Shown: in pieces, positions 702 through 20,459 of the stretch | How positions within the stretch are numbered: position 1 is the first letter of the stretch | How the letters are laid out: each line of letters starts with the position of its first letter | Assembly: GCA_011390435.1 (NCBI GenBank) | Contig: JAABSK010000026.1 | Location: forward strand, 1-20,459 | Source: Desulfobacteraceae bacterium | Lineage (GTDB): Bacteria; Desulfobacterota; Desulfobacteria; Desulfobacterales; Desulfobacteraceae | Reading direction: 5' to 3' | Length of the DNA stretch: 20,459 bases | Position numbers and translations under genes: made by a program | The notes under the pieces: model-generated | Database searches by the model: none | Seen by the model: the letters and a program-made list of their open reading frames with translations, nothing else | What the model was told of the DNA's origin: nothing

Positions 702-1604
702 TCAGGATGAATGCTGCTGTCTGTCGCCGGCCAGGCGGACTTCAAGACCGTGGGCCTTGATATTTCTGGAATGGAATCGGCTGATCAGGCGGGTCCTGAC
801 ATCATGGCCGAATTCCCATGCGTTTCCAGGCGAATCCACCCATCCGGCAATCCAGCACTTATATCCTTTGGTGGTCATTTCCATGATCCAGAACCGGGGT
901 TCTTCGTAGTCACTGAAATACTGGCTGCCGGATGCTGCTTCCATGGCCAGCGCTTCAATATCGTCAGGTTCATGATCATAGGAAACAAAAAATTCAACAT
1001 GGACCCATTGGTACGGATCATTGATGGTGCAGTTGACGATCTCTTTTACCAGCATCTGGCTGTTGGGAATGATATATCTTCGCCAGTTCCAGATCTTGAG
1101 AACGGTGTGGGTAATGGTGATATCTTCAATGGTGCCGTAATTCCCATCAATAATAACGGTGTCACCCGTCCGGACAGGGTGGGAAAAAGAGATGACCACC
1201 CCGGATATCAGATTTTCAATAAACGGCCGGGATGCGATCCCGAGAATAATACCGGAGGCACCCACCAGAATCGAAACCAGGGTGGCGGGAATCGCCTGCA
1301 GAAAAGGAAAAATAAAGGCAATCACCCAGATGGCGATCGTAACCAAAAGGGAGATTTTACGGATAATGGTAAACCGGGTGGCCACACTCTCTGCCGCCAG
1401 TTTTTTTGCCGTCTGAAACGGATTTTCCAGAGGCGTTTCAGTATTGACCGGTTCAAATGAACTGATGCGTTTCAGCCTGCGGCTTCGCTGGGTCTCGGCA
1501 GTGGTTATTTTTTTCCGGACCCACCAGATGGTTGCCGCCCCTGAAATCCCCACCAGACAAAAATAAATCAACAAATATCGATCAAACATAAAACCTTCCA
1601 TCAT
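702..1604 (-). CDS. MscS-family mechanosensitive ion channel
   Basis: A 300-residue inner-membrane protein that should form a homoheptameric channel opening on membrane tension to release osmolytes. Membrane segments are visible at about residues 8-28, 83-103 and 106-128. The last is the Gly/Ala-rich pore helix (VGASGIILGIASRPFIENLISG), followed by the conserved beta domain (PVRTGDTVIIDGNYGTIEDI, then IPNSQMLVKEIVN) and a soluble C-terminal alpha/beta domain. The length is close to E. coli MscS (286). It is the last gene of the leftward hcp block, 18 bases after the large coiled-coil gene. The start is uncertain: ATGs at 1604, 1601 and 1589 are all possible, the last with GGAAGG four bases upstream. 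Confidence 0.9.
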   Translation of the reverse strand: MMEGFMFDRYLLIYFCLVGISGAATIWWVRKKITTAETQRSRRLKRISSFEPVNTETPLENPFQTAKKLAAESVATRFTIIRKISLLVTIAIWVIAFIFPFLQAIPATLVSILVGASGIILGIASRPFIENLISGVVISFSHPVRTGDTVIIDGNYGTIEDITITHTVLKIWNWRRYIIPNSQMLVKEIVNCTINDPYQWVHVEFFVSYDHEPDDIEALAMEAASGSQYFSDYEEPRFWIMEMTTKGYKCWIAGWVDSPGNAWEFGHDVRTRLISRFHSRNIKAHGLEVRLAGDRQQHSS

Positions 1605-1622
1605 CCCCTGAACAAATAATTC

Positions 1623-4592: not shown

Positions 4593-4606
4593 CAAACATC
4601 CTTTTT

Positions 4607-6250
4607 TCAGTTTCCAGCCATCATGGCGGCAACATCGTCATCTGCGTCACCAATCAATTTGATATCAAACTTTTCAACCAGCACATTCAGCACAGTGGGT
4701 GAGATAAATGCAGGAAGCGTCGGCCCAAGCCGGATCCCTTTGATGCCCAGCGACAGCAATGCCAGAAGGACAGCAGCAGCTTTCTGTTCATACCAGCCGA
4801 TGTCAAATGAGAGCGGCAGATCATTGATATGCTCCAGACCGAAAGCGTCTCTGAGCTTCATGGCGATCACCGCCAGAGAGTAGCAGTCGTTGCACTGGCC
4901 TGCATCCAGAACCCGCGGGATTCCGCCGATATCACCAAGATCAAGCTTGTTGTATCTGTATTTTGCACATCCTGCGGTCAGAATCACAGCGTCTTTTGGA
5001 AGCTTTTGTGCGACTTCTGTGAAATATGACCGGCTCTTCATCCTGCCGTCGCAACCCGCCATAACAATAAACCGTTTGATCGCGCCGGATTTCACTGCAT
5101 CAATCACCTTGTCAGCAAGGGCCAGAACCTGATGATGGCCAAATCCGCCCACAATCGTTCCGGTTTCGATTTCCTCTGGCGGCTTGCATTGTCCGGCCTT
5201 TTCAATGACAGCGGAAAAATCTTTTGCAGCACCTTCTTTTCGATCAGCGATGTGAACAGCCCCGGGATACCCTGTTGCGCCGGTTGTAAAAAGCCGGTCT
5301 GCGTAAGTGTTGTTTTTTCTGATCGGAATGACACAGTTGGTGGTCATCAGGATCGCACCGTTAAACGTTTCAAAATCCTGATTCTGGTGCCACCATGAAT
5401 TGCCGTAGTTTCCTTTCAGATGCCCAAATTGTTTCAGTTTCGGATAATAGTTGGCCGGAAGCATTTCACTGTGCGTATACACATCGATTCCTTTGCCTTC
5501 GGTCTGGATCAGCAGCTCCTGTAAATCTCTGAGGTCATGACCGCTGACAAGAATCCCGGGATTTGTTCCGACGCCAATGTTGACTTCCGATATTTCCGGA
5601 TGACCGTAGGTGCTGGTGTTGGCTTCATCCAGAAGCGCCATGGTGGCAACGGCATTGTCCCCTGTCTTCATGACCATGGCGATCATCTCATCAACAGAAA
5701 GATCTTCTGTGACAGATGCCATACTTTCGACCAGCTGATCATAGACGGCTTTGCTTTCAAATCCCAGCATTGCCGCATGATGGGCATAGGCGCTGATGCC
5801 TTTACAGCCGAACACCACTGTTTCCCTCAAAGACCGTACATCCTCATTTTCTGTGGCAAGAATGCCCACGGTCCTGGCTTTTTCCTGAAACTGTGCAGCG
5901 TCATCGCTGATATAAACCGCGGCATCATGAAGGTTTTTTGGAAGTTTTTCGCCGAATGCTGATGTAAGGTCAGATTTGAAAACCTGAAGCTGCCGGATAC
6001 AGTCAATGAGCGCATCATCATCAAAGTTGGCATTGGTAATGGTTGTAAACAGGGAGTGGGAAATGATTCGGCCGGCGTCCTCAATGCGGTCAATTCCAAG
6101 CGCCTTCCCTTTTTTGGCCAGAACCGCAATTCCTTTACAATGAAAAATAATCAGATCCTGCAGATTTGCAGTGGCATCTTCTTTTCCGCAGACACCTCGA
6201 ACCGTACAACCGGTTCCCTTTGCTGTTTCCTGACATTGAAAACAAAACAT
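4607..6250 (-). CDS. hcp: Hybrid cluster protein (class I), NO/hydroxylamine reductase
   Basis: A 547-residue cytoplasmic Fe-S protein. The N-terminal MFCFQCQETAKGTGC pattern gives Cys3, Cys6, Cys15 and Cys21, the [4Fe-4S] site spaced as in Desulfovibrio class I enzymes. The ligands of the 4Fe-2S-2O hybrid cluster are all in place: His238, Glu262, Cys306, Cys400, Cys428, Cys453, Glu488 and Lys490. The family reduces hydroxylamine in vitro and acts in vivo as a high-affinity NO reductase and protein S-nitrosylase. No hcr reductase gene adjoins it, so the electron donor is unknown. The ribosome site GGAGGAG is strong. It is the first gene of a likely operon with the exported coiled-coil protein and MscS. 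Confidence 0.97.
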   Translation of the reverse strand: MFCFQCQETAKGTGCTVRGVCGKEDATANLQDLIIFHCKGIAVLAKKGKALGIDRIEDAGRIISHSLFTTITNANFDDDALIDCIRQLQVFKSDLTSAFGEKLPKNLHDAAVYISDDAAQFQEKARTVGILATENEDVRSLRETVVFGCKGISAYAHHAAMLGFESKAVYDQLVESMASVTEDLSVDEMIAMVMKTGDNAVATMALLDEANTSTYGHPEISEVNIGVGTNPGILVSGHDLRDLQELLIQTEGKGIDVYTHSEMLPANYYPKLKQFGHLKGNYGNSWWHQNQDFETFNGAILMTTNCVIPIRKNNTYADRLFTTGATGYPGAVHIADRKEGAAKDFSAVIEKAGQCKPPEEIETGTIVGGFGHHQVLALADKVIDAVKSGAIKRFIVMAGCDGRMKSRSYFTEVAQKLPKDAVILTAGCAKYRYNKLDLGDIGGIPRVLDAGQCNDCYSLAVIAMKLRDAFGLEHINDLPLSFDIGWYEQKAAAVLLALLSLGIKGIRLGPTLPAFISPTVLNVLVEKFDIKLIGDADDDVAAMMAGN

Positions 6251-6319: not shown

Positions 6320-7345
6320 TTAAAAAAGCCGATGGTGTTCTCGTAATTTTTCAGAAAGCGCCTTGGTCAGCTCAAACGCCTTTTCAACTGTCTGACTGCC
6401 GTCCTGGTTGACCAGGCAGCAGGTGGCCGGTGAGATCAATCCCTGTTCCAGAATTTGATCCATTGGGATCCCTTTCCTGTCAAGGGCCTTCCAGATCGTT
6501 TCCAGTCTGAAGGCCAGCAGATCAAGATTTTCTTTTTCAAAGGTTTCAAAACCAGTGGGAACGATCCCCCAGACCAGAACACCCCCTTTGTCGAGAAATT
6601 TTTTGATCGATCGGGTCGATAAACCAAAGATTTCAGCATTTGAATGAATATCCAGAGACAGAATATCCAGATCCAGGCCTAAAAGAAAATCCCAATCCGG
6701 GTTTCCACACAGGTGTATCCCTTTTGGACTTTCAATCTGCGCAAAAAATTCGTCCAGATCCTGTTTTGCTTTCTGGTCGCTGTAACCGGACATGGCCGAA
6801 AAAACAAACTGCATTCCCGGTTCATCAACAAACATGAATGCGTTGCTGTTTTTCTGTTTGAGCTTTTCCAGTTGAATATTGATCCGCCTGGCCATGAATT
6901 CAAACATAAACGGGCGCACAGTATCATCAAAAAGAATCGGACGTTCATCCTGATCCAGTACGTTGAAACCAAAGCTTACAGGCCCTTCGAGCTGCCCGCG
7001 GATTGCAGGCCTGCCTGACAGATCCATGTTCAGGAAGCGATGATACACAGCAGAATATGTTGTGCTGACATCAAAATAGTCAGGGTCGTCAGCGTGTGCC
7101 ATGGTTTCTTCAAATTCTGCAATGAATTTATCCATGGAAAACCGCAACGTCTTTTTGTCCATATCCAGAACAATCCCTGGAAAATGCTCTGCTGCCTGGA
7201 CATACATATCTTCATAATAGCTGTAATTGGGCAGTTGCGGCCAGAAAGGGATATCAAGGCTCATTGCTGTTTCAAGGGCTTTGTCAATATCAGTATGCGG
7301 CATGACAGCCATGGCTGTTGTCAACAATTTCCCCGGAATCGGCAT
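6320..7345 (-). CDS. MetE C-terminal / uroporphyrinogen decarboxylase-like protein
   Basis: A 341-residue protein of the UroD/MetE TIM-barrel superfamily without the MetE N-terminal domain. Visible signatures are FVDEPGMQF (173-181), the zinc-type HLCGNPDW (His211, Cys213) and SPATCCLVN with Cys309 and Cys310. These match the His-x-Cys plus distant Cys zinc site of cobalamin-independent methionine synthase. It therefore probably transfers a methyl group or acts on a thiol or corrinoid substrate; the substrate is not determinable. A longer frame begins at 7429, but ATG 7345 has AAGGGAG about eight bases upstream and starts the conserved MPIPGKLLTTAMAVMPHTD. It sits between the RND operon and hcp, with 120 and 69 bases of separation, so it may be transcribed alone. 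Confidence 0.8.
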   Translation of the reverse strand: MPIPGKLLTTAMAVMPHTDIDKALETAMSLDIPFWPQLPNYSYYEDMYVQAAEHFPGIVLDMDKKTLRFSMDKFIAEFEETMAHADDPDYFDVSTTYSAVYHRFLNMDLSGRPAIRGQLEGPVSFGFNVLDQDERPILFDDTVRPFMFEFMARRINIQLEKLKQKNSNAFMFVDEPGMQFVFSAMSGYSDQKAKQDLDEFFAQIESPKGIHLCGNPDWDFLLGLDLDILSLDIHSNAEIFGLSTRSIKKFLDKGGVLVWGIVPTGFETFEKENLDLLAFRLETIWKALDRKGIPMDQILEQGLISPATCCLVNQDGSQTVEKAFELTKALSEKLREHHRLF

Positions 7346-7404
7346 GGTTGCACTCCCTTCCTCTTTGTATTCGACCTGTATATGATTGCTGCAATTTATT
7401 ATTC

Positions 7405-7428
7405 TGCCAATTTTTCCCCAGCTTGGCA
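7405..7428. repeat. Perfect 6-bp inverted repeat upstream of the MetE-like gene
   Basis: TGCCAA (7405-7410) and TTGGCA (7423-7428) are separated by 12 bases, in the 120-base gap between the RND gene end and the MetE-like start. On the minus strand TTGCCA-N17-CAGAAT overlaps it and could be a weak promoter, making the repeat a candidate operator or leader hairpin about 60-80 nt before the ATG. There is no T run, so it is not a convincing terminator. Confidence 0.35.
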
Positions 7429-7465
7429 AGCGTTATGCGCTGCATCTGCAGGGCGGATGAAAAAA

Positions 7466-10400
7466 TCAAACCTCAGGCCCATACGCTTTTGAACCGATTT
7501 TTTCGACCATCCCGAAATCATTCAGGATCAGATACATGCAGGGAAGTGCCAGAAGAACCAATACCGTGCTTGCCATCAATCCAAATGATGTGCTGATGAC
7601 AAGGGGAATCAATATCTGTGCCTGAAGACTTTTTTCAAGCAGCAGCGGAAGCAGACCGGCAATGGTCGTGGTTGATGTCAGCAGTACGGCCCTGAATCTG
7701 TCCTTGCTTGCCTGGACAGCTGCATCGTGTATTGACAGCCCGCTTTTCCGTGCATTTTTTAAAAAAATCACCAACAGAATCGAGTCATTCACAACAACGC
7801 CCCCCAAAGCAATAAAACCCAGCAGACTCGGCATGCTGACAGGCACCCCCATCAACCCGTGCCCCCAGATCACACCGATCAGGGCAAAAGGGATGGCCAG
7901 CATCACGATAAACGGTTCTGTAAACGTCCTGAACTGAAAACTCAACAGAAAAAAAATACCCACAAGTCCGATAACCAGCGATATCAGCATTGATTTTCGG
8001 GTGGTATTGATCTCTTTCAAAGCGCCTGCAATTTCCAGTTTTAAATCCGGGTATGTTTGTTGAAAATCGTTCAGGCGGGATTGGCGAAAAAGATGCATCA
8101 ATTCATTGGTATTGATTTTCCGGGTATCCACATCCCCGCGCAGGGTTACCGCGCGCATCCCGTTAAACCGTGCAATGCGCGCCCATCCCGTTTTTGTTTC
8201 CCATGTCACCACAGCGGTTAAGGGAACATGGGTTCCGTCTGACAGTATCAGATTAAAATTTTCCAGATCATCCAGATCATCTGTATTGATTCCTGACAGG
8301 CGGACTTCGATTTCATACGCCTCAGGCCCGATCTGAATCTGGTCGGCATCAACCCCCTGAAATGCCGCTCTCAGCTGCCGGGCAATGTCTGTCGCATCCA
8401 ATCCGATACCGTGGGCGTCTTCACGGATCTGCATGCGAAATTCAGTCCGGCCGGCCCTGAGGTCATCTGTCAGGTTCAACACACCTTCAAACTGGGAAAA
8501 CCAGCTTTTCAGGTCTGCCACTGCGGTTTTCATTTCATTTAAATTGTCACCTCTCAGACGAATTTCAATCGGACGGCCGCCAGGTCCGAAACCAGGTTCA
8601 CTCAGGTTCAGACTCACGACATCCGGCAGATTGCCGACCGTTTTCCGCCAGAAGGCCAGATACGCGTCTATGGATCCGGATCTTTGATCCGCTGTCAGTA
8701 AATCCACTGTGATGGTTGCCACATGAGGACCGTTTTCAAAGGCTTCTGTATTTGAATTGTACTGGACATACACATTCCTGACCAGATCCCGGCCTTCAGG
8801 CTGATCTGGTTTAAACTGCTGATTTGTTTGTTCAAGGGCGGACAGAATATGAGCGACAACGTCTTCGGTTCGCGTCAATGGGGTACCCTGGGGCATCAGC
8901 AGCCGTGCCATCACAACATTCCCCTCCAGTTCTGGAAACCCTTGAAACTTTATTTTTCCAGAGGCAATCATGCTGATGGAAAGAATAAAGGTTCCAATCA
9001 GCAAAGACAAAAAAAGATACCGCTGTTTCAGGAGCATTCGAACCCCACTGCCCAGCAGTACATCTCTTGTCCAATTAAAAAACCGATTGAATCTTTCCCT
9101 GAAACGATTTGTCCGGTTCAGGTCAAATTGATGCATGGCATGATTCATATGGGCAGGGAAAATCAAAAAGGCCTCGATAAGGCTTACAGCCAGCACCAAA
9201 ATCAGCATCATGGGAACAACCTTCAGCACCCTGCCGATTTGTCCGTCAATAAAAGCCAATGGACCCAGGATACAAATTGTTGTGAAAAATGAAGAGATCA
9301 CGCCTGCTCCCACTTCTTTTGTGCCGTCTACAGCCGCACGCAAAGGCGGTTTTCCGCGCTGCCGGTGGGTCATGATGTTCTCGGCAATAATAATCGCATC
9401 ATCCATGAGCAACCCAAGGGCCATCAGCAGACCGACCATGGTAAACATGTTGATGCTCAGATCCAGGTGCGGGATAAGGGTAAACGCCCCCATAAAGGAG
9501 ATTGGCAGACCCAGGGCGATCCAGAAGGAGACCCGGACATTGAAAAACAGCAACGTGGTGGCAAAAACCAGCACCAATCCCTGAAGTCCGTTGGTGACGA
9601 GCATACCAAGGCGGTCTTTCAAAACCGTGGTCTCATCCTGGGTGATGGTCAATTTCATCTGAGGGTGGCGCTTGCGTTCGCCTTCGACAAACGTGTATAC
9701 CTGCTGTGCAATCCGGATCGCGTCCTGATTCTTTGATTTTTCAATCTTCAGCAGGGCGCTTCGCTGCTGATCCTTAACAAACTTTTCTTCATCCAGCTCA
9801 AACAGATCTTCAATCCGGGCGATATCTCCCAGGCGAATCCGGCCACCTGATGAATCGGCAAAAACAATAAGATCCGCCAGTTCAGATGGGGTCCGCCGCT
9901 GATCAACAAACCGGAGCAGGATCTCTTTTTCGCGGGTCTCAATGATTCCCAGCGGAATATCTTTGCTCTGGGCTGCGATGCGATCTGCGACGTGTGCAGC
10001 ACTGATCCCTGCCCTTCGCAGGGCTGCGTCGGACAACAATACCCGCAGCTGATGATCGGAAAAGCCCTGGATGTCGATCAAAGCCACGCCTGCTTCCTGC
10101 AGACGATCCTTGAAATCTTCACAATATGCTTTCAGGTCAGAAAACGCCAGAGGACCGGATACCAGAAGCGACAATACCGGATCTGTCCGCCCGAGCTCGG
10201 AAATGACAGGACGTTCGACTTCATCCGGAAAGTCATCAATGGCACCGATTTCGGTTTCGATATCCCGTATGAATGTCTGAATATTGCCTTGTGTGCCCAT
10301 TTCAACAACAATGGATGCCATCCCTTCACGGGCATCCATTCGGACTTCTTTCACAAAACTGATGCCGTCAAGGGCGTCCTCCACCCGCAGACAAATCACT

Positions 10401-10576: not shown

Positions 10577-11949
10577 TGTCTGGCCTCTTTTCCCCGGTGC
10601 ACGGCAGTCATCCGTCGGTAAAAACCGTCATCAACCACCGGTGAAATTTTCATACCGATCATTGCCGGCGCAGGATCAGATACAACAACCCGATCACCGA
10701 TTGATACCCCGGATCGAAGAACCGCTGCTTCTGATTGAAAAAAATCGACAATGACCTGTTTTTTCTGCAATCGGGATTCTGAATCAACGATAAAAACCAC
10801 ATCATCATGCACAGCAGACCTTGGCACCACCATCCGCCGGGGCTGAACAGGGCCCTGCAGCTCCACCCGGCAGAACATGCCTGCCATCAGCGGCGGGCGC
10901 TCCCCTGGTATGACTTTTTCATAGGGGTGGTCCACCGCCACCACAACCATGATTTCCCTGGTTTTTACCGCAACCGCTTCCCGGAATCGATCGATTCTGG
11001 CATCCCATTGCGCAGACCATTCTCCGCTTTGAAGCTCAACAACACCCCTTACATCTTTAAATAACCGGCCGAAATCACCCGTGCCCAGTCCCGGCTGTAA
11101 CCGATTGCGCATCTGTTCATTCAAAAGTTTTTGCAAGTCTTCTATTCTGAACTGAACATCGATTTCTGTGACATCGGTTCCATGGGCCTGAAAAAGCAGC
11201 TGGCCAGCCTGTATAAACTGTCCTGCCTTGATATTGACATCCCCTGGCCGGCAGTCATACGGCGCCCTGATAACTGTCTTTGACAGATTTATCTGTGCCT
11301 GTCTGAGATCAGAACGATAGACCTCAAGGACTGCCTGCAGAGATTCTTTTTTTGACGGAATTAACGCAAGATCATTTTCCAGCTTCAGCAGATTTTGCTG
11401 CTGTTGAAGAAAGCTGATTTCCTCCTGATCCACATCATCTTTAGATGCAGCATTGTGTTTGAGCAATTTACGCTTGCGTTCAATTGAATCTCTTGCCAGA
11501 ATTAAAGACTGTTTTTCCACGGCAATCATTTTTCTGGCGTTATCCTCGGCAATGGCAAGTTCTCTGATCTCTGCCTGGGTTTTGGCAACATTTGCCGCTG
11601 TCCGGGAAATGGCCAACTGGTATTCCGTGCCATCGAGCTTGATTAAAACCGTTTCAGCCGGAATGATTTCCCCAGCCTTTAAACGCGAATGGATGTACCG
11701 GACAGTTCCCTTGACTTCAGCCACCGCTTCCCAGACAGATCCCGGCCGGGCTGTTCCATACCCCGCAACCGTGGGGATCAGGTCCACAGATGATGTTTTT
11801 ACAACCCTGAGCGGTTTTATCGATTCCTGTATCGGTTTTTGATGCGGACCTGGTTTATGCGTCACCAGATATACTGCCACTAAAACAGCGATGGCAATCG
11901 GCAGGATCATCATGAATCTGATTGAATATTTCCTGATCATTTTTCTCAC
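10573..11949 (-). CDS. Periplasmic adaptor (membrane fusion protein) of the RND pump
   Basis: A 458-residue HlyD/AcrA-type adaptor that bridges the RND pump and an outer-membrane channel. The N-terminus has one membrane anchor (about residues 12-30, MMILPIAIAVLVAVYLV). A lipoyl half-motif follows (AEVKGTVRYIHSRLKAGEII), then a coiled-coil hairpin of about 100 residues (LAIAEDNARKMIAVEKQS to LDQ-rich helices), the second lipoyl half (TVIRAPYDCRPGDVNIKAGQ) and beta-barrel domains ending in IGDRVVVSDPAPAMIGMKI. It starts with GTG at 11949, overlapping the DUF3786 stop as GTGTGA; an internal ATG at 11940 is an alternative. AGGAG lies upstream of both. Confidence 0.93.
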   Translation of the reverse strand: MRKMIRKYSIRFMMILPIAIAVLVAVYLVTHKPGPHQKPIQESIKPLRVVKTSSVDLIPTVAGYGTARPGSVWEAVAEVKGTVRYIHSRLKAGEIIPAETVLIKLDGTEYQLAISRTAANVAKTQAEIRELAIAEDNARKMIAVEKQSLILARDSIERKRKLLKHNAASKDDVDQEEISFLQQQQNLLKLENDLALIPSKKESLQAVLEVYRSDLRQAQINLSKTVIRAPYDCRPGDVNIKAGQFIQAGQLLFQAHGTDVTEIDVQFRIEDLQKLLNEQMRNRLQPGLGTGDFGRLFKDVRGVVELQSGEWSAQWDARIDRFREAVAVKTREIMVVVAVDHPYEKVIPGERPPLMAGMFCRVELQGPVQPRRMVVPRSAVHDDVVFIVDSESRLQKKQVIVDFFQSEAAVLRSGVSIGDRVVVSDPAPAMIGMKISPVVDDGFYRRMTAVHRGKEARQ

Positions 11950-12602
11950 ACTGATGATTCTCCTTTGATTAAAAACCCGGTGAGGCAGGTGACGATACTG
12001 GCCAGAGATTTCAGATCCAGGTATGAGATTGCATCCTCATGAAACAAAAACGCGGATGTTGCGGGAAATGTATCATCACTCTCATTAAACTGCAATGTGA
12101 CCGGTATTCTGGGCAGCGCCTTAAACCGGATACTCAAGTCACAGGAACAGTTGCCCAGCGGCATTCCAAAAAGCGCCTTACATTTTTCTTCAAGTGCGTC
12201 CAGCCTGCCGGAAAATGCGGTTTCGATTGTTTTGTTGGTATTTTCCACAAACCGGGAAAACAATGGACCTGCTCCTGAAAATTCTCTGAAGGTCACAAGT
12301 TTTCCTGAACTGTCAGTTTTTGTTTGCGGATGCATGATCAGATACCGGCAGAAAACGGTTTTGATTGCCGGCAGCAGCGCTGTGCCGGAAAGATCAATAA
12401 AATCTGTGCCGTCAAACAGAATCTGGCGGTTGAAAAAATCAAACCGATATCCCTGGGCGCATTTCTGAATCCCGAGCGTATCAATGAAATGATCAATCTT
12501 CAGTTCACGAACCTGTGACAAACATTCATCAAGATTGTCATTCCCCTGGATTGGATCATCTACCGATTTTGTGCCTTTTAATTCAACATTATCGCGGTTC
12601 AT
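11946..12602 (-). CDS. DUF3786-type protein heading the RND operon
   Basis: A 218-residue soluble protein without signal peptide or membrane helix. The C-terminal part, VTLQFNESDDTFPATSAFLFHEDAISYLDLKSLASIV (residues ~165-202), matches the pattern I associate with DUF3786 (PxxLxFxxxDxxFPAxxxxLFDxxxxxYLxxExL), a family frequent in Desulfobacterota and some Firmicutes. A Cys pair (NCSC) precedes it. No biochemical function is established for the family. It is the first gene of a three-gene operon with stop-start overlaps into the adaptor and pump, where a TetR- or MarR-type regulator is more usual. AGGAG lies seven bases before the ATG. Confidence 0.75.
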   Translation of the reverse strand: MNRDNVELKGTKSVDDPIQGNDNLDECLSQVRELKIDHFIDTLGIQKCAQGYRFDFFNRQILFDGTDFIDLSGTALLPAIKTVFCRYLIMHPQTKTDSSGKLVTFREFSGAGPLFSRFVENTNKTIETAFSGRLDALEEKCKALFGMPLGNCSCDLSIRFKALPRIPVTLQFNESDDTFPATSAFLFHEDAISYLDLKSLASIVTCLTGFLIKGESSV

Positions 12603-12640: not shown

Positions 12641-12683
12641 ACTATACTGGTAAAACAAAGGGGATATCCTTGATATAAATCAA
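12641..12683 (-). promoter_or_regulatory. FNR-type class II promoter of the DUF3786-RND operon
   Basis: TTGAT-ATAA-ATCAA (12670-12683) is a perfect match to the FNR-family palindrome TTGAT-N4-ATCAA. On the minus strand the -10-like hexamer TATAGT (plus 12641-12646) begins 30.5 bases from the palindrome centre. That puts a start near 12634 with the box at about -42, the standard class II activator position. There is no good -35, as expected for an activated promoter. The ATG at 12602 follows a leader of about 30 nt. CRP/FNR relatives such as HcpR or Dnr bind similar sites, so the exact regulator is inference. Confidence 0.7.
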
Positions 12684-13101: not shown

Positions 13102-13653
13102 ATGAAAGCCATCGAACAGCTGGAAAATGAGCACGAGGGAATCAAAATCGTATTTCGCATTTTAAAACAGATGTGTGATTCTCTCAAATCAGATCAAACC
13201 CTTAACATCAGTCATTTTGAAGGCATTCTGGAATTTTTCCAGATTTTTGTGGACAAATGCCACCACGGTAAAGAGGAAGACCTGCTTTTTCCGGAAATGA
13301 TACAGGCCGGTATCCCGGAGCAGGGTCCCATCGCGGTCATGCTGTCGGAACATACCACCGGCCGCAGCCATATCAAAGCCATCGGTCAGATGTTGACCCG
13401 GTTCAAGTCAGGCGATACCGCCGTTGCTGAAGCACTTGCTCAGGAATGTGAACAATATATTTCCCTGATGCGCGACCATATCGAAAAAGAAAACACCATT
13501 CTTTACCCCATGGGAGAAAGCCGCTTTTCAAAAGAAACCGACGAACGGTTGTATCAGAGTTTTGAAACACTTGAAGTGGAAAGAATCGGCAAGGGCAAAC
13601 ATGAAGCGTTTCATGAGATGATCGACCAGTTGACCCGCATTTATCTGAAATAA
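13102..13653 (+). CDS. Hemerythrin HHE-domain protein (first copy)
   Basis: A 183-residue, mostly helical cytoplasmic protein with the hemerythrin HHE di-iron pattern: His11 (LENEHEGI), His54 or His55 and Glu58 (CHHGKEED), His84 (LSEHTTGRSH) with His90 close by, and His126 and Glu130 (RDHIEKEN). The family binds O2 reversibly or acts in O2/NO sensing, transport or repair. The gene has AGGAG about eight bases before ATG and ends 13 bases before the flavodiiron gene, so the two are co-transcribed. In microaerobic defence hemerythrin could deliver O2 to the flavodiiron enzyme (inference). The C-terminal ~40 residues lie outside the four-helix core. Confidence 0.92.
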   Translation: MKAIEQLENEHEGIKIVFRILKQMCDSLKSDQTLNISHFEGILEFFQIFVDKCHHGKEEDLLFPEMIQAGIPEQGPIAVMLSEHTTGRSHIKAIGQMLTRFKSGDTAVAEALAQECEQYISLMRDHIEKENTILYPMGESRFSKETDERLYQSFETLEVERIGKGKHEAFHEMIDQLTRIYLK

Positions 13654-13666
13654 TCAGGAGGCCGCC

Positions 13667-14860
13667 ATGCATTTTGCAATCAAAGAACAGATCCACTGGG
13701 TAGGAAAAATCGACTGGGAGCTGCGCCATTTTCATGGACAGGAATACACCACACACCGGGGCTCCAGCTATAACGCCTACCTGATCAGAGATGAAAAAAC
13801 TGTTCTCATTGATACGGTATGGTCTCCGTTTTCCCATGAATTTGTGGAAAACCTCAAAAAAGAGATTCCGTTGGAACAGATTGACTATATTATTGCCAAT
13901 CATGCAGAGTCTGATCATTCAGGTGCTCTTCCGGAACTGATGCAGCACATCCCGGACACCCCCATCTACTGTACTGCCAACGCGGTAAAATCCCTGACAG
14001 GCCACTACCATCAGGACTGGAATTTCAAGGTGGTTAAAACCGGAGACAAACTCAATATCGGCACCAGGGATCTGATCTTCATCGAAGCGCCAATGCTCCA
14101 CTGGCCTGACAGCATGTTCTGCTACCTCACCAAAGACAGCATTCTGTTCAGCAACGACGGATTCGGCCAGCATCTGGCATCGGAACTGATGTACAATGAT
14201 CTGGTGGATCCGGGCGAACTGTTCCAGGAAGCGATCAAATATTACGCCAATATTCTGACCCCTTTCAGCGCCCAGGTCACCCGGAAAATACAGGAGGTGG
14301 TGGCCCTGAACGTGCCGCTGGACATGATCTGTCCCAGCCACGGGGTGATCTGGCGGAAAGATCCCATGCAGATTGTGGACCGATACCTGCAATGGGCAGA
14401 TGCATACCAGGAAAACCAGATCACACTCATCTATGACACCATGTGGGAAAGTACCCGGAAAATGGCAGAAACCATTGCCAAAGGGATTCTTGCGGCTGAC
14501 AGCAGCGTCACGGTAAAACTGTTCAATGTGGCCAAATCCGATAAAAATGACATCATCACCGAGATCTTCAGATCCAAAGCGATCCTGGTTGGATCCCCCA
14601 CGGTGAACAAGGGAATTTTATCTTCTCTGGCCGGCCTGTTCGAAGAGATCATCGGCCTGCGGTTCAAGGGCAAAAAAGCTGCGGCATTCGGATCATACGG
14701 CTGGAGCGGTGAATCCGTGAAGGTGATTTCCGACAGGCTGGAACAGGGGAAATTTGAACTGTTGAACGAAGGGTTGCGTGAAAAATGGAACCCGGACACC
14801 CAGGCGGTGGAAAACTGCTTCAATTTTGGAAAATCCATTGGTGAAACACTGAAACCATGA
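13667..14860 (+). CDS. Flavodiiron protein (FprA / rubredoxin:oxygen oxidoreductase type)
   Basis: A 397-residue A-type flavoprotein. The N-terminal metallo-beta-lactamase fold carries the di-iron ligands His79, Glu81, Asp83 (NHAESDH), His145 (MLHWPDS), Asp164 (SNDGFGQ) and His225 (PSHGVIWR). The C-terminal flavodoxin domain begins near residue 252 with the FMN phosphate loop YDTMWESTRKMA. The enzyme reduces O2 to water and/or NO to N2O in the cytoplasm of anaerobes. There is no fused rubredoxin or NADH-reductase domain and no rubredoxin gene in the window, so the electron donor is encoded elsewhere. AGGAGG precedes ATG. The last base quartet ATGA overlaps the VOC start. Confidence 0.97.
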   Translation: MHFAIKEQIHWVGKIDWELRHFHGQEYTTHRGSSYNAYLIRDEKTVLIDTVWSPFSHEFVENLKKEIPLEQIDYIIANHAESDHSGALPELMQHIPDTPIYCTANAVKSLTGHYHQDWNFKVVKTGDKLNIGTRDLIFIEAPMLHWPDSMFCYLTKDSILFSNDGFGQHLASELMYNDLVDPGELFQEAIKYYANILTPFSAQVTRKIQEVVALNVPLDMICPSHGVIWRKDPMQIVDRYLQWADAYQENQITLIYDTMWESTRKMAETIAKGILAADSSVTVKLFNVAKSDKNDIITEIFRSKAILVGSPTVNKGILSSLAGLFEEIIGLRFKGKKAAAFGSYGWSGESVKVISDRLEQGKFELLNEGLREKWNPDTQAVENCFNFGKSIGETLKP

Positions 14861-16101: not shown

Positions 16102-16144
16102 TTGATATACATCAATTTTTTCATCGTCCCGATCATGGTATGCT
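16102..16144 (+). promoter_or_regulatory. FNR-type class II promoter of the CBS-HPP-kinase operon
   Basis: TTGAT-ATAC-ATCAA (16102-16115) is a perfect FNR-family palindrome in the 138-base gap after the hydroxylase gene. TATGCT (16139-16144) lies at the -10 position, its upstream edge 30.5 bases from the palindrome centre. Transcription would start near 16151, with the box at about -42 and a leader of about 80 nt before ATG 16231. The box is followed by six T, so it might instead be read as a weak terminator-like hairpin. The 5-bp stem and the matching -10 make activation the better explanation. Confidence 0.7.
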
Positions 16145-16230: not shown

Positions 16231-16824
16231 ATGAAATTAAGCAGCGTCAATGAATGCGTCCAGACCATCACCGATGAGGATGTGCTTGAGGCCATGAAAA
16301 AAATTCCAGGATATCTGGACATTACACCGTCTGACTTTTTAGCAATTTATAGGATCGCTTTTGATCACGCCGTAACCAGGCTCCGAACTGCCGTACTGGC
16401 TGAACATGTCATGACAAAAAAAGTCATTTTTATTACAGAAGATGCACCGCTGATCGAAGCGGTGATCAAAATGGGAGAAAATGAAATTTCCGGCCTTCCT
16501 GTTCTGAACAATGAGAATATGGTAACCGGTGTAATTTCAGAAAAAGATTTTCTGGCCCGAATGAATAGTAAAAAATCGCCTTCATTCATGCAGGTTCTTC
16601 TTCAATGCATGGATACCACCGGCTGTCTTGCAGTGCCTTTTAAAAATTTCAAAGCACGGGATATCATGTCATCTCCGCCAGTCATGGTTCATCAGAAGAC
16701 AACCCTGCTTGATGTGGCAAACACCATGGATCGATCCAATATCAATCGGATTCCGGTACATGATGATCACAACACACTGGTGGGGATCATTGCCAGATCA
16801 GACCTTGTTCAGGCCATGTGCTGA
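16231..16824 (+). CDS. CBS-domain pair protein
   Basis: A 197-residue soluble protein with two CBS domains at about residues 58-111 (VMTKKVIFITEDAPLIEAV and GVISEKDFLARM) and 143-195 (DIMSSPPVMVHQKTTLLDV and GIIARSDLVQAM). Together they form a Bateman module that binds adenine nucleotides such as AMP, ATP or SAM. The N-terminal ~55 residues (DVLEAMKKIPGYLDITPSDF and onward) are a helical region. The ribosome site is GAGG six bases before the ATG. It is followed 23 bases later by an HPP membrane protein; in some bacteria CBS domains are fused to HPP, so this is probably its cytoplasmic regulatory subunit (inference). Confidence 0.92.
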   Translation: MKLSSVNECVQTITDEDVLEAMKKIPGYLDITPSDFLAIYRIAFDHAVTRLRTAVLAEHVMTKKVIFITEDAPLIEAVIKMGENEISGLPVLNNENMVTGVISEKDFLARMNSKKSPSFMQVLLQCMDTTGCLAVPFKNFKARDIMSSPPVMVHQKTTLLDVANTMDRSNINRIPVHDDHNTLVGIIARSDLVQAMC

Positions 16825-16847
16825 TCGCGGACGCAAAGGAAATTACA

Positions 16848-17387
16848 ATGAATCTGTTCTTGAAAAAAATGACCGGCGGTGGCCAGCGTCCCCCAAAAGT
16901 GGGTGCTTCAGAAATCTTCTGGTCCTGGATCGGTGCCTTTGCAGGAATCACGCCGGTGGCACTGTTAAATTACACTTTTTTTGCCGGAAATGATTTGGTT
17001 TTTATTATCGGGTCTTTCGGAGCGTCAGCAGTCCTGATTTACGGTGCCATCCGAAGCCCGCTGGCCCAGCCCCGGAATCTGGTTGGCGGGCATCTGCTGT
17101 CCGCTTTCATCGGCGTGGCATCCTGGCAGATGTTTGCGCCTTTTCCCTGGTTTGCTGCAGCATTTTCCGTTGCAACCGCCATTGCCGTGATGCATGCCAC
17201 GCAGACGCTTCACCCGCCAGGTGGTGCCACTGCGCTGATTGCTGTCATCGGCAGTGAAAAAATACATGCTCTGGGATTTATGTATCTTCTGTTTCCAGTG
17301 GGGGTTGGGGTATTGATCATGTTGATTGTGGCCCTGATCACCAATAATATGGCAAAAAACCGGAAATATCCGGAATTCTGGTTTTAA
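16848..17387 (+). CDS. HPP-family integral membrane protein
   Basis: A 179-residue protein with about four membrane helices (roughly 25-45, 50-68, 82-115 and 145-165) and the family signature HPPGGATAL (122-130). Other conserved blocks are GSFGASAVLIYG and PLAQPRNLVGGH. HPP proteins are linked to nitrite transport in plastids and cyanobacteria; that role is an extrapolation here but would suit neighbours that handle nitrogen oxides. ATG 16848 is chosen over the in-frame ATG 16818 because it follows AAAGGA by six bases and does not overlap the CBS gene. It lies between the CBS and hemerythrin genes of one operon. Confidence 0.9.
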   Translation: MNLFLKKMTGGGQRPPKVGASEIFWSWIGAFAGITPVALLNYTFFAGNDLVFIIGSFGASAVLIYGAIRSPLAQPRNLVGGHLLSAFIGVASWQMFAPFPWFAAAFSVATAIAVMHATQTLHPPGGATALIAVIGSEKIHALGFMYLLFPVGVGVLIMLIVALITNNMAKNRKYPEFWF

Positions 17388-17427
17388 AACGCCATTAAAA
17401 TCTGAACCGGGCAAGGACAGGCTGCAT

Positions 17428-18003
17428 ATGGAAGTGTTGACGAAATTAACCGAAGAACACGCCCTCATCCTCCAGGGTATCAACTGTCTTGAAACAGCAA
17501 GAGATGCGCTGGAGAAAAGCTGTCATCCGCCAGTAGCGTTTTTTGAAACAGCTGTTCTTTTTTTTACGGAATATGCAGACAAACTGCATCACTATAAAGA
17601 AGAATATCTGTTGTTTGGATTTTTGGCGTCAAAAAAAGGCGGCAGCATTGATCTTGAAATGGGAGCACTGCGATACCAGCATGAAGTGAATCGGCAGTGT
17701 TTAAAAAAAATAAAAGATTCTCTTAAAGGATATGGGACCAAAAACGAAATCGCGGTGACAACACTTCTGGAAAACAGTGCGGCATATATTTCGATCTTAA
17801 AGCGCCATATTTACAGAGAGGATCAACTGTTTTTTCCCATGGCAGAAACAGAATTGTCGGAAAATGAAAAAAATCAGCTGAAGAAACAGTTTGAAGCGGA
17901 AGAAAATGGATTGAACACAAACAAGGTGCTCAGGGACAATCTATCCCGCCTCCAGAACATGAAAAATGCCATTAACGGAATGCAATGGGCTCAAAACGAT
18001 TAA
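17428..18003 (+). CDS. Hemerythrin HHE-domain protein (second copy)
   Basis: A 191-residue helical protein with the HHE pattern: His11 (TEEHALI), His54 or His55 and Glu58 (KLHHYKEEY), His85 (RYQHEVN), and His127 with Glu131 (KRHIYRED). It is the same length class as the upstream hemerythrin and shares its spacing exactly (11, 54/55, 58, then 84/85 and 126/127), so the two are paralogues, although sequences differ widely. A Lys/Glu/Asn-rich C-terminal extension of ~45 residues follows the core. The end overlaps the kinase gene by 19 bases, which implies coupled translation and a sensory partnership (inference). The ribosome site is AAGGACAGG. Confidence 0.9.
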   Translation: MEVLTKLTEEHALILQGINCLETARDALEKSCHPPVAFFETAVLFFTEYADKLHHYKEEYLLFGFLASKKGGSIDLEMGALRYQHEVNRQCLKKIKDSLKGYGTKNEIAVTTLLENSAAYISILKRHIYREDQLFFPMAETELSENEKNQLKKQFEAEENGLNTNKVLRDNLSRLQNMKNAINGMQWAQND

Positions 18004-19451
18004 ACTGCTGGGAATACATGGGCTGCGGCCTGGAACCCGGCGGCATAAACACTGTTCAGGACGGGATCTGTCCTGCAGCATCAGACAGCAGTTTTTCCGG
18101 TATTAATTCCGGTAAAAATGCCGGCCGGTTCTGCTGGGCGGTTTCAGGAACGTTCTGCCACCGCGAGCGCCAGGGCCATTATCTGAAGAAACTGGCAAGC
18201 TGCCGGGAATGTGATTTTTACCATATGGTACTGGCAGAAGAGGGAACCTTGAACCTGAGAACCACGTTCTTAAGATTTGCATGCGGCCACCATGCCGGAA
18301 CTCCCATTCTCAAACAGCTGCACCAGACCATCATCAAACCGGGAACACGGTTCGTATTTCAGGGCAGAGAAATGGACGAGGCCTATATTATCAGACGCGG
18401 AGCATGCATCGTGCTGGTGGAAAAAGACGGCCATCTATACCCTGTGGATCATCGAAGCGAGGGAGATCTGGTAAACATGAGCGCGCTGTTCACCGGAGAG
18501 CCCAGCATGGCCCATGTTGAATCGGAAAGCGAAATTGACGCCTGGGTGATTCAAAAATCCGCATTTCATACCATACCGGAAAATGATCCTGATCTCTGGG
18601 AATTTCTGACCGAGATTGTTGCAGATCGCTTTGATTCAAAACGACCGACCTCATATCGGACCATCGGGCATTATCTGATAACAGAAATCATCGGCCGTGG
18701 CGGGTACAGCATTGTTTACAAAGGAAAAAACCTGCTCACCCAAAAGCCGGTGGCCATCAAGATGATGCGGCATCATATGGTTCTGGACAGTGACTTTCTT
18801 GAAAAACTGAAAAGGGAAGCGCACATTGTCAACCTGCTGGATCACGAGAATATTATCAGAGTTTATGATATGGTGGAGCGGTACCGCACCATCTTTATCA
18901 TCATGGAGTATCTGGAAGGCGAGTCCATCCTGGAGAAGATCCAGCGGCACAAGACAATTCCGCCCCAAACCGCTGTCCATTATCTCATTCAGGCCTGCCA
19001 TGCGATTCAGTATGCCTATGGCATTGGTATTCTGCACAGGGATATCAATCCAGGCAATCTGATGGTTGTTGAAAATAACAGGATAAAGCTGGTCGACTTT
19101 GGTGTGGCCTGCTCGCTTCAGGAGGAAGATGATCTTTTTGACGGTGCGTTTCCCTACCTTGCACCTGAAATATTACAAGGAGAAACCCCGAGCCTGCAAA
19201 GCGATATCTATGCGCTGGGGATTTCCGCATTTGAAATGGTGACCGGCCAACGGCCGTATCCTGAAGATGATCCGGCACGGTTTACACAGATACGCTGCAC
19301 TGAGGAGATTCCAGATCCAAAACAGCTGGTTCCAGAGCTTTCGCACCGCCTGGCCCGGTTTATTGTAACGGCCTGCCGGATCGATCCCGCCAGAAGATTC
19401 AAGAATATGACAGAGGCTGTTGACCTGCTGACCCAAGGGAAAAATGATTGA
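17985..19451 (+). CDS. Two-CW / cNMP-binding-like / Ser-Thr protein kinase fusion
   Basis: A 488-residue cytoplasmic protein in three parts. Residues 1-87 form a cysteine-rich two-CW-type module (Cys8-Trp9, Cys14, Cys29, Cys50-Trp51, Cys58, Cys73, Cys76). Residues ~108-212 look like a cyclic-nucleotide-binding beta roll (IKPGTRFVFQGREMDEAYII, GDLVNMSALFTGEPSMAHVE). Residues ~230-482 are a Hanks-type kinase with Gly loop GRGGYS (237-242), Lys259, Glu278, HRDINPGN (351-358), DFG (371-373) and APE (393-395). Lys of the usual HRDxKxxN is Asn355. The start overlaps the hemerythrin end by 19 bases. It ends one base into the phosphatase start. Metal or redox sensing by the Cys module is inference. 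Confidence 0.9.
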   Translation: MGSKRLNCWEYMGCGLEPGGINTVQDGICPAASDSSFSGINSGKNAGRFCWAVSGTFCHRERQGHYLKKLASCRECDFYHMVLAEEGTLNLRTTFLRFACGHHAGTPILKQLHQTIIKPGTRFVFQGREMDEAYIIRRGACIVLVEKDGHLYPVDHRSEGDLVNMSALFTGEPSMAHVESESEIDAWVIQKSAFHTIPENDPDLWEFLTEIVADRFDSKRPTSYRTIGHYLITEIIGRGGYSIVYKGKNLLTQKPVAIKMMRHHMVLDSDFLEKLKREAHIVNLLDHENIIRVYDMVERYRTIFIIMEYLEGESILEKIQRHKTIPPQTAVHYLIQACHAIQYAYGIGILHRDINPGNLMVVENNRIKLVDFGVACSLQEEDDLFDGAFPYLAPEILQGETPSLQSDIYALGISAFEMVTGQRPYPEDDPARFTQIRCTEEIPDPKQLVPELSHRLARFIVTACRIDPARRFKNMTEAVDLLTQGKND

Positions 19452-20278
19452 TGAACACCAAAAAACAAAACTGCTGGGAAGATATGAAGAAATGCGGCAG
19501 CGGACCAGGAAAAGGACACGTCCCAAAAAATCAGGCCGCATTGGAGACAAACAATATCGACATTGCTGCCTGTACCCATACCGGTCTGATTCAAAAAACC
19601 AATGAGGACAGATATCTTGTCAGAACCATGACAGACAATGCTGTGCTGCTTGCAGTGGCTGACGGTTTGGGAGGAGATGTTTCCAGTGATGTTGCCGCAG
19701 AAATGGCCAAAAGCAGGCTTGCATCATTGAGCCATCTCCCTGCAGGCAGGGAGACCGAATTTCTGAATACATTCGCAAAAAAGCTTGATCTGTTGATTCA
19801 TCAAAAGGCATCAGATCATCCCAGCCTGACGTACATGGCAACAACCCTGGTGTGCACGGTTTTAAAAAACAATATGATCCACTGGATAAATATCGGTGAC
19901 AGCAGATTCTATCTTCTCCGGAATGGTGCCATTCACCAGATCACAAAAGACCAGACACTGGCAAAAGCGCTTGTTGAAGAGGGTGTTCTGAAACCAGAGG
20001 ATGTGGAGGTGCATTATTCCCGAAAAATTCTTGACCAATGCCTGGGATATGGAACAAGCGAACCTGAAACCGGCACGTTTGAAATCAAACAGAACGACAC
20101 CATCATTCTGGCCACAGACGGTCTCTACAAGATGATTGAACACCGATTGATGCTGAGCATTCTAATGAGTGACAACCGTCTGGGGCAGAAAACAGCCGCC
20201 CTGACAGAGGCAGCGTTATCATCCGGTGGCAAGGACAACATCACCATTGTGCTTGCCCATGTTAAACAGACGGAATAA
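19451..20278 (+). CDS. PP2C-type Ser/Thr phosphatase with N-terminal CW-like motif
   Basis: A 275-residue metal-dependent phosphatase. Signatures are THTGLIQKTNEDRY (42-55, Asp53), VADGLGGD (69-76, Asp71), INIGDSRFYLLRNG (Asp150), ILATDGLYKM (Asp223) and GGKDNITIVL (Asp262), so the metal-binding aspartates are complete. It is the expected antagonist of the adjacent kinase, with which it overlaps by one base (TGATG). ATG 19451 is preferred to TTG 19448. The first ~30 residues begin NTKKQNCWEDMKKCGSGPG and resemble the start of the kinase (NCWEYMGCGLEPGG), but the rest of the Cys module is missing. Confidence 0.93.
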   Translation: MNTKKQNCWEDMKKCGSGPGKGHVPKNQAALETNNIDIAACTHTGLIQKTNEDRYLVRTMTDNAVLLAVADGLGGDVSSDVAAEMAKSRLASLSHLPAGRETEFLNTFAKKLDLLIHQKASDHPSLTYMATTLVCTVLKNNMIHWINIGDSRFYLLRNGAIHQITKDQTLAKALVEEGVLKPEDVEVHYSRKILDQCLGYGTSEPETGTFEIKQNDTIILATDGLYKMIEHRLMLSILMSDNRLGQKTAALTEAALSSGGKDNITIVLAHVKQTE

Positions 20279-20298
20279 ATAAAACCTGAAAAGGCCTG

Positions 20299-20459
20299 TT
20301 ATCCGTTGTCATCCTGTCCGTCGGAACGGATCTGTAAAAGGCTTTGTATTGTAATTTTGTCAAGGCGCTTGAACATGGCTTTACCAGCCTCAACCCAGAC
20401 CCAGCGGGACAGGCAGTCGCCTGCCTCATTACAGATGCCGCAGAGTTTCTGATCCTCTT
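20299..20459 (-). CDS. Rrf2-type transcriptional regulator, C-terminal part (partial)
   Basis: Only the last 53 codons are present; the start lies beyond the window. The fragment reads EDQKLCGICNEAGDC with a Cys-x2-Cys-x5-Cys cluster, then LSRWVWVEAGKAMFKRLDKI and TIQSLLQI. This agrees with the Fe-S cluster loop and final helix of the Rrf2 family (IscR, NsrR, RirA), typically ending in a Trp-containing segment and a dimerisation helix followed by SIT-ADLL. Such regulators sense Fe-S status, NO or redox state. It converges with the phosphatase gene, 20 bases apart. Which subfamily it belongs to is undetermined. Confidence 0.75.
   Translation of the reverse strand, partial: EDQKLCGICNEAGDCLSRWVWVEAGKAMFKRLDKITIQSLLQIRSDGQDDNG
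20301..20331 (-). repeat. 7-bp inverted repeat at the 3' end of the Rrf2 gene, possible terminator
   Basis: ATCCGTT (20301-20307) pairs perfectly with AACGGAT (20325-20331) across 17 bases. On the minus strand the downstream arm includes the stop codon, and short T runs follow within about 8-20 bases. This would suit a weak leftward terminator between the convergent genes, but the long loop and interrupted T run keep confidence low. Confidence 0.3.

Follow-up and report, generated by a model that had tools for sequence, protein, structure and literature searches.

A five-gene operon in a 20,459-nucleotide stretch of DNA from a Desulfobacteraceae bacterium (contig JAABSK010000026.1 of assembly GCA_011390435.1; the whole stretch is called the window) probably belongs to a Ser/Thr phosphorylation module that is conserved in Desulfobacterota and acts as a switch linked to nitrite or nitric oxide (NO). 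The core is a three-domain protein kinase with a PP2C phosphatase, and a YtfE-like hemerythrin accompanies it in about half of the loci. The adjacency of the genes is conserved, kinase and phosphatase have been fused repeatedly, catalytic and metal-ligand residues are intact, genes of nitrate, nitrite, and NO are linked to the kinase, and FNR-type sites are present; the signal, the substrate, and the cofactor of the two-CW domain are what we infer. The operon consists of the following features (aa, amino acids).

16102..16115, plus strand: perfect FNR/DNR-type palindrome TTGATATACATCAA, 115 bp 5' of the CBS start; the palindrome recurs upstream of relatives.
16231..16824, plus strand: CBS-pair protein, 197 aa; PF00571 at 1.7e-30 in two stretches (Pfam).
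16848..17387, plus strand: HPP-family membrane protein, nitrite-transporter-like, with an LHPPGG motif, 179 aa; PF04982 TM_HPP at 6.9e-61.
17428..18003, plus strand: hemerythrin (HHE) protein, 191 aa; PF01814 at 4.2e-14; YtfE-type ligands H11, H54, E58, H85, H127, and E131.
17985..19451, plus strand: Ser/Thr kinase of three domains (two-CW, cNMP-binding, and Hanks kinase), 488 aa.
18000..18233, plus strand: two-CW domain of the kinase, aa 6-83; NF045718 at 4.1e-29 (NCBIfam); seven invariant Cys.
18333..18575, plus strand: cNMP-binding (CRP-like) domain of the kinase, aa 117-197; PF00027 at 1.9e-9; strands in the structure model.
18678..19403, plus strand: protein kinase domain, aa 232-473; PF00069 at 2.2e-53; catalytic Lys, HRD, and DFG.
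19451..20278, plus strand: PP2C Ser/Thr phosphatase, 275 aa; PF13672 at 1.3e-15 and NF033484 at 2.3e-55; conserved Asp.
19469..19498, plus strand: two-CW remnant NCWEDMKKCG at the PP2C N-terminus, seen in the sequence; several relatives' PP2Cs carry the domain at full length.

An earlier note, made from the letters of this DNA, had described five genes on one strand with gaps of 23 and 40 bases followed by overlaps of 19 bases and 1 base. That arrangement is exact to the base, and Pfam and NCBIfam confirmed the named products (CBS, HPP, hemerythrin, two-CW kinase, and PP2C). Two features had been overlooked, the cNMP-binding domain of the kinase and the two-CW remnant of the PP2C. The start of HPP was taken as ATG 16848 and that of PP2C as ATG 19451; the list of open reading frames (ORFs) also holds a longer HPP frame from GTG 16818 and a PP2C start at TTG 19448.

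An initial protein search of the genome collection yielded nine loci. Seven (L001-L007) are true relatives, and the other two, L008 and L009, match in the two-CW domain only. Within one order, probably Desulfobacterales as judged from the lineages of L001-L004, L006, and L007, 76 of 389 genomes encode proteins, some lacking two-CW, that match a profile of these kinases at E ≤ 1e-100. At a stricter 1e-170, a sample of 395 genomes from across the phylum gave matches in 6. The loci studied come from 58 of the 76 matching genomes. The relatives number 61 (L001-L007, L044, and L046-L098), and six kinases without two-CW (L099-L104) served as controls. Profile matches that were incomplete (G210:C220, G151:C424, G172:C616, and G197:C71) or that started past model residue 5 (L006 and L099-L104 excepted) were left aside.

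Neighbors were counted by tblastn, since the ORF caller missed hemerythrins, and loci with too little flank were excluded from the totals of 53 and 56 used here. A hemerythrin lies at most 400 bp upstream of the kinase in 28 of 53 testable loci. The aligned ends of the two are within 70 bp in 27 of these 28, and the ORFs overlap or lie within 10 bases of each other in 23 of 27. PP2C is downstream of the kinase or fused to it in 40/56, and hemerythrin and PP2C are both present in 20/48. All five genes stand in order in eight of the 61 loci (L048, L054, L056, L057, L062, L081, L091, and L092, with kinase and PP2C fused in L048). The full order and the frequent hemerythrin-kinase pair contradict the possibility, raised in the earlier note, that the genes are together in this genome only. 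The order in L054 is a piece of Hcp, a 119-aa ORF, qNOR, CBS, HPP, hemerythrin, kinase, PP2C, and a NapH-like gene. L060 has the hemerythrin-kinase pair with NarG at a distance of 5.8 kb, and no PP2C adjoins its kinase. Because CBS lies within 3.2 kb of the kinase in only 16 of the 61 loci and HPP within 2.5 kb in 19, the CBS-HPP pair is an optional attachment and not part of the core; it may be a target or an input of the kinase, as the earlier note proposed. None of the six control kinases has hemerythrin, HPP, or CBS nearby, and two have PP2C.

The residues expected of working enzymes are retained (residue counts and the tree were made without L006 and L063). All seven Cys of the two-CW domain are invariant, C8 in 58/58 relatives and the other six in 59/59. 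In the kinase domain, G237, G239, K259, E278, H351, D353, F372, and G373 are found in 59/59, D371 in 58/59, and R352 in 52/59. The glycine loop, catalytic Lys, αC Glu, HRD, and DFG of Hanks-type kinases are all in place, and Ser/Thr phosphotransfer is predicted. In the cNMP domain, C141 is present in 57/59, and in the kinase domain C376, the third residue after DFG, in 55/59; a Cys at the latter position also occurs in four of the six control kinases and is thus not specific to the two-CW kinase family. The activation loop of the window kinase (19095-19169, aa 371-395) combines this Cys with an acidic EEDD stretch, a single Ser, and no Thr. A script counted at most two Ser/Thr/Tyr residues in the loop of 31 of 60 members (window included) and up to six in the others. 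Our guess is that members with a poor loop are controlled by their N-terminal domains instead of by loop phosphorylation.

In the phosphatase, D53 (30/30 relatives), D71 (31/31), D223, and D262 (both 32/32) are invariant; we take them to be the metal-site residues. These residues and the Pfam score place the protein in the PP2C family, and its score with the Stp1/IreP-type model NF033484, 187.7 bits, is below the 230-bit cut-off. A full two-CW domain is present on the PP2C of L005, L047, L057, L063, L071, L075, L076, L088, and L091, and the window's PP2C retains the first motif only. Ten kinases are fused to PP2C, and they occupy four places in the tree (L001/L046; L089/L095; L048; and L007/L050/L052/L070/L078). 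The four changes, counted such that one gain plus one loss makes two, are all forced by well-supported branches. For hemerythrin, present in 30 rows and absent from 24, the tree requires 5 changes, compared with a shuffled mean of 17.9, a comparison in which related rows make any label cluster. Because it is clustered on the tree, hemerythrin marks only parts of the family, and kinase-PP2C is the wider core.

In an alignment with E. coli YtfE, the window hemerythrin has every one of the six ligands of the di-iron site (four His and two bridging Glu), given for YtfE in passages of PMC9268430 as H84, H129, E133, H160, H204, and E208. The six are invariant in 27/27 relatives. Production of NO from nitrite by YtfE is reported in PMC9052748. 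The window hemerythrin has only a small close family; of 136 candidates, 41 clusters reach E ≤ 1e-20. For nine of the 41, including the window's, the longest contig equals in size that of one of the 120 listed kinase matches, which suggests that these nine lie beside kinases. Comparison by sequence with solved structures gave two weak matches only. The hemerythrin Pfam domain is in none of the 120 listed kinases, and two apparent fusions of hemerythrin to kinase, which would have been direct proof, were rejected. The long N-terminus of L063 is a GAF domain, and the N-terminal extension of L070 is taken as an out-of-frame reading of the hemerythrin gene, which tblastn places 5 bp upstream. The L063 frame (1522-3840) runs from the GAF domain through unknown residues (an assembly gap) to the kinase, and the GAF domain is possibly another sensor input. 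In L005 (Desulfopila), the hemerythrin encoded 5' of the kinase (7087-7869) resembles YtfE in having an extended N-terminal domain that contains Cys residues, and napD-napA lie 3' of PP2C.

The clusters of neighboring genes include NapA, a NapB-like cytochrome, NarG, a NorB-type qNOR, Hcp, and NapH-like and HdrBC-like proteins. Marker positions were taken genome-wide in 59 kinase-bearing and 21 kinase-lacking genomes (no match at 1e-100). The HPP of G175 and the NarG of G352, each in two pieces, were counted once, and a fragment of Hcp in G388 was excluded. HPP was found within 15 kb of 21 of the 61 kinases (0.18 expected from genome density), Hcp of 7 (0.48), qNOR of 6 (0.10), NapA of 4 (0.08), NarG of 3 (0.04), and NrfA of 3 (0.09). 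At least one marker lies within this distance in 29/61 loci. When the three loci that had suggested the markers (L004, L005, and L007) were removed, the counts were HPP 20, Hcp 5, qNOR 6, NapA 3, NarG 2, and NrfA 2 of 58. HPP is present in 41/59 kinase-bearing versus 3/21 kinase-lacking genomes (p 2e-5), NapA in 20/59 versus 1/21 (p 0.009), and NrfA in 17/59 versus 0/21 (p 0.004). A role of HPP in nitrite transport is described by Maeda 2014, as cited in passages of PMC7438415. The window protein has the TM_HPP domain and the HPP motif, and homology and gene context support its assignment as a putative nitrite transporter. Because nitrogen-oxide genes are enriched near the kinases and the hemerythrin has the di-iron ligand set of YtfE, the module most likely serves the sensing of nitrite or NO rather than of O2. 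NO as the alternative signal and HPP as a possible nitrite transporter, both suggested by the earlier note, fit these results better than its proposal of oxygen.

The FNR-type site that the earlier note saw before the operon is real and is a perfect palindrome. Only two perfect TTGATNNNNATCAA sites occur in the window, including TTGATATACATCAA at 16102-16115; arithmetic on the ten fixed bases predicts about 0.02. A TATGCT hexamer at 16139-16144 stands at about the spacing from the palindrome that class II FNR promoters follow. Leaders with less than 150 bp upstream were excluded from the comparison with relatives. Of 59 operon leaders, that of the window among them, 24 have a perfect TTGAYNNNNRTCAA site and 35 have none; in comparison, sites occur in 35 of 213 other leaders of the same loci (p 1.5e-4) and in 0 of 23 leaders in control loci. 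Palindrome density was 63 in 836 kb of kinase loci versus 2 in 103 kb of control loci. Recurrence in relatives rules out chance. A perfect, recurring upstream palindrome is characteristic of FNR/HcpR/DNR regulons, and binding of such a regulator is predicted. Fourteen of the 35 other leaders with a site precede NapH-like or HdrC-like genes, so these genes and the operon may form one regulon, to which the second site of the window, before the hemerythrin-flavodiiron genes, possibly belongs. In passages of PMC1274295, the palindrome shape is common to the FNR/DNR motif and, in delta-proteobacteria outside Desulfovibrio, to the HcpR motif; predicted HcpR regulons often contain hemerythrin-like genes. 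Of the earlier note's interpretation, the results support a compact module in which kinase, phosphatase, and a partner hemerythrin follow an FNR-type site, and they show that this module is conserved.

A model of the full kinase was fair (mean pLDDT 80.1). In a Foldseek search against the PDB, cGMP-dependent protein kinases (PKG) ranked best and PknB next, and a PKG-like architecture, cNMP domain and kinase in one chain, is present. Inspection by eye of 25 listed sequences revealed no consistent Glu or Arg at the positions where the phosphate-binding cassette of CRP holds the nucleotide. A search for a solved relative of the two-CW domain found none. PADLOC matched the kinase to phage-defense kinases (PD-T4-6 and MAD6), an assignment we rejected; in the 25 listed of the 36 matches, the matched stretch is the kinase domain (aa 207-486). 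There was no PADLOC defense match for CBS, HPP, or hemerythrin, and one weak match for PP2C (PDC-M21C, 1.8e-11).

Outside the operon, the window contains further features.

4607-6250, minus strand: hybrid cluster protein Hcp; NF003658 at 6.8e-243.
12670..12683, plus strand: second perfect FNR-type palindrome, between a DUF3786 gene (11946-12602, minus strand) and the hemerythrin-flavodiiron genes.
13102-13653, plus strand: neighboring hemerythrin (Pfam/NCBIfam).
13667-14860, plus strand: neighboring flavodiiron protein; NF008887 NO reductase flavorubredoxin at 1.3e-221.

Hcp is about 7 kb from the hemerythrin-flavodiiron genes, which makes the window itself a nitrogen-oxide region. Its left and right halves are tied to one neighborhood by the gene order of relatives. 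In L007, L050, and L052, a homolog of the 369-aa protein encoded at 6320-7429 (minus strand), whose gene adjoins Hcp in the window, lies directly 5' of hemerythrin-kinase, and in L007 Hcp is directly 3' of the fused kinase. In L055, a flavodiiron-glyoxalase pair like that of the window follows the kinase after a 161-aa frame. The 369-aa protein has no match in Pfam (E ≤ 0.01) or NCBIfam (E ≤ 0.1) and appears UroD/MetE-like by eye; homologs occur in 12 of the 61 kinase loci, often beside NapH-like or hemerythrin genes, and we count it as a nitrogen-oxide neighbor. A 990-aa protein (1623-4595, minus strand) is without a clear family, with DUF4440 alone at 0.0038, below the cut-off. At 20279-20459 (minus strand), convergent with the operon, an Rrf2-type regulator is represented by its C-terminal piece, which has several Cys (a weak Pfam match at 0.00035, below the cut-off); the regulator is possibly NsrR/IscR-like.

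These features would be compatible with the following mechanism. A regulator of the FNR/HcpR/DNR type would switch the operon on in anoxia or under nitrogen-oxide stress. Nitrite would cross the membrane through HPP, which the CBS protein may gate in response to adenine nucleotides. The di-iron protein could bind or reduce nitrite, or bind NO, and relay its state to the Cys-rich two-CW domain and the CRP-like domain, which would control the kinase domain in the way that PKG is gated by its cNMP domains. PP2C would reset the phosphorylated targets, for which respiratory or nitrogen-oxide enzymes are the first candidates. A more ambitious form of this scheme is conceivable, and we hold it only tentatively. 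It is a self-contained nitrite/NO cassette in which HPP imports nitrite and the YtfE-like protein makes a nitrosyl or redox signal that passes directly to the PKG-like kinase through two-CW, a new metal- or thiol-based sensor, and in which the PP2C, in some cases with its own two-CW, senses the same cue in the opposite sense.

Several points weigh against a nitrite/NO-linked module with a YtfE-like hemerythrin. Hemerythrin is absent from 25 of the 53 testable loci and is therefore not the sole input. It failed the curated YtfE/RIC models TIGR03652 (19.6 bits versus 204.7) and NF008221 (15.8 versus 254), so we describe it as YtfE-like only in its site and do not class it as a RIC protein. The N-terminal ScdA domain of YtfE, with its di-Cys, is absent from the 191-aa protein, which begins at the HHE domain, and the H-HxxxE-H-HxxxE pattern is common to many HHE proteins. 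The two-CW model was weak (mean pLDDT 51.7) and gives no cofactor. The markers were chosen after the neighbors had been seen, and 32/61 loci have none within 15 kb, partly owing to short contigs. The P values are too small given that related genomes are not independent, and the differences in marker presence between kinase-bearing and kinase-lacking genomes may be inflated by the small size of several kinase-lacking genomes. In this comparison there was no significant excess of qNOR (22 versus 5), NarG (10 versus 5), or Hcp (53 versus 18). The case as a whole is computational.

Two other explanations were weighed against these data. The operon could be a switch for oxygen or general redox state, with hemerythrin reporting O2 and the two-CW Cys reporting redox, that shields strict anaerobes from air. 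HHE domains are able to bind O2, a flavodiiron protein of the adjoining type could serve either O2 or NO, and the FNR-type box, the seven invariant two-CW Cys, and the Cys third after DFG would all suit such a switch. However, nitrogen-oxide genes are enriched near the kinases and the ligand set is that of YtfE, and CydA and desulfoferrodoxin, the only oxygen markers counted, were near 0/61 kinases (nearest pair 376 kb), a count of little power with 0.26 and 0.29 expected. We therefore rejected oxygen as the main signal, and we judge this explanation unlikely. We regard as similarly improbable that kinase and PP2C are a true signaling pair and that hemerythrin and CBS-HPP are mere passengers, co-regulated in a nitrogen-oxide regulon without feeding the kinase. 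Kinase-PP2C pairs do persist elsewhere on the tree without hemerythrin, CBS-HPP is found in a minority of loci, and 13 of 26 HPP genes away from the kinase lie near Hcp, qNOR, or NarG. The tight spacing of hemerythrin and kinase, within 70 bp in nearly every locus that has both and mostly overlapping or within 10 bases, argues against passengers, as does the small size of the close hemerythrin family.

If the nitrite/NO-linked module is correct, it would add fast post-translational control to the nitrogen-oxide response of sulfate reducers. Passages of PMC5701242 describe their response to nitrate, nitrite, and NO as transcription control by HcpR1, HcpR2, and NrfS-NrfR. The module would also provide a role for the two-CW domain, open the signal of a di-iron hemerythrin to direct tests, and be relevant to the use of nitrate against souring and to the nitrogen cycle of sediments. 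Should the self-contained cassette be the true form, it would, as far as our literature search goes, be the first known case of sulfate reducers sensing nitrogen oxides by Ser/Thr phosphorylation, alongside the transcription control exerted by HcpR. That search, judged from titles and the openings of abstracts, recognized no account of this module. It returned no paper naming the two-CW domain, none joining a hemerythrin with a Hanks-type kinase, and none joining hemerythrin, protein kinase, phosphatase, and nitrate in Desulfo. The terms nitric oxide, hemerythrin, and cyclic nucleotide are all missing from a 2018 review of Hanks-type kinases (PMC6213207). Because a 2025 survey of bacterial PP2Cs (PMC12088040) lists, in the passages available from it, Pkinase and cNMP_binding among fused domains, PP2C fusion as such is not new; the survey's text has no match for Desulfo, and the order two-CW-cNMP-kinase-PP2C does not appear in those passages.

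Among known systems, the PknB/PrkC-Stp pairs share the kinase fold (PknB is among the best Foldseek matches, TMt 0.79-0.91) and an adjacent Stp1/IreP-type PP2C. They differ in that two-CW and cNMP domains precede the kinase here and hemerythrin is a partner; no PASTA domain was found in the window kinase. SpkB of Synechocystis, which we liken by description only, is said to be a thiol-regulated Ser/Thr kinase that bears a Cys motif in its N-terminal part and is redox-controlled; the references of PMC6213207 include a title on a cyanobacterial kinase modulated by thiols. In PKG, too, a single chain has a cNMP domain ahead of the Ser/Thr kinase, and PKG gave the top PDB fold matches, whereas the window kinase has one CRP-like domain plus two-CW, and a root-mean-square deviation of 16-22 Å over both domains demonstrates no common arrangement. 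The HcpR/DNR/FNR nitrogen-oxide regulons described in passages of PMC1274295, whose main text contains no occurrence of the term kinase, have the same TTGAY-N4-RTCAA palindromes and hemerythrin-like genes. The YtfE/ScdA RIC proteins share all six di-iron ligands with the window hemerythrin, which by contrast is 20% identical to YtfE, lacks the N-terminal domain (the L005 homolog has one), and is gene-coupled to a kinase.

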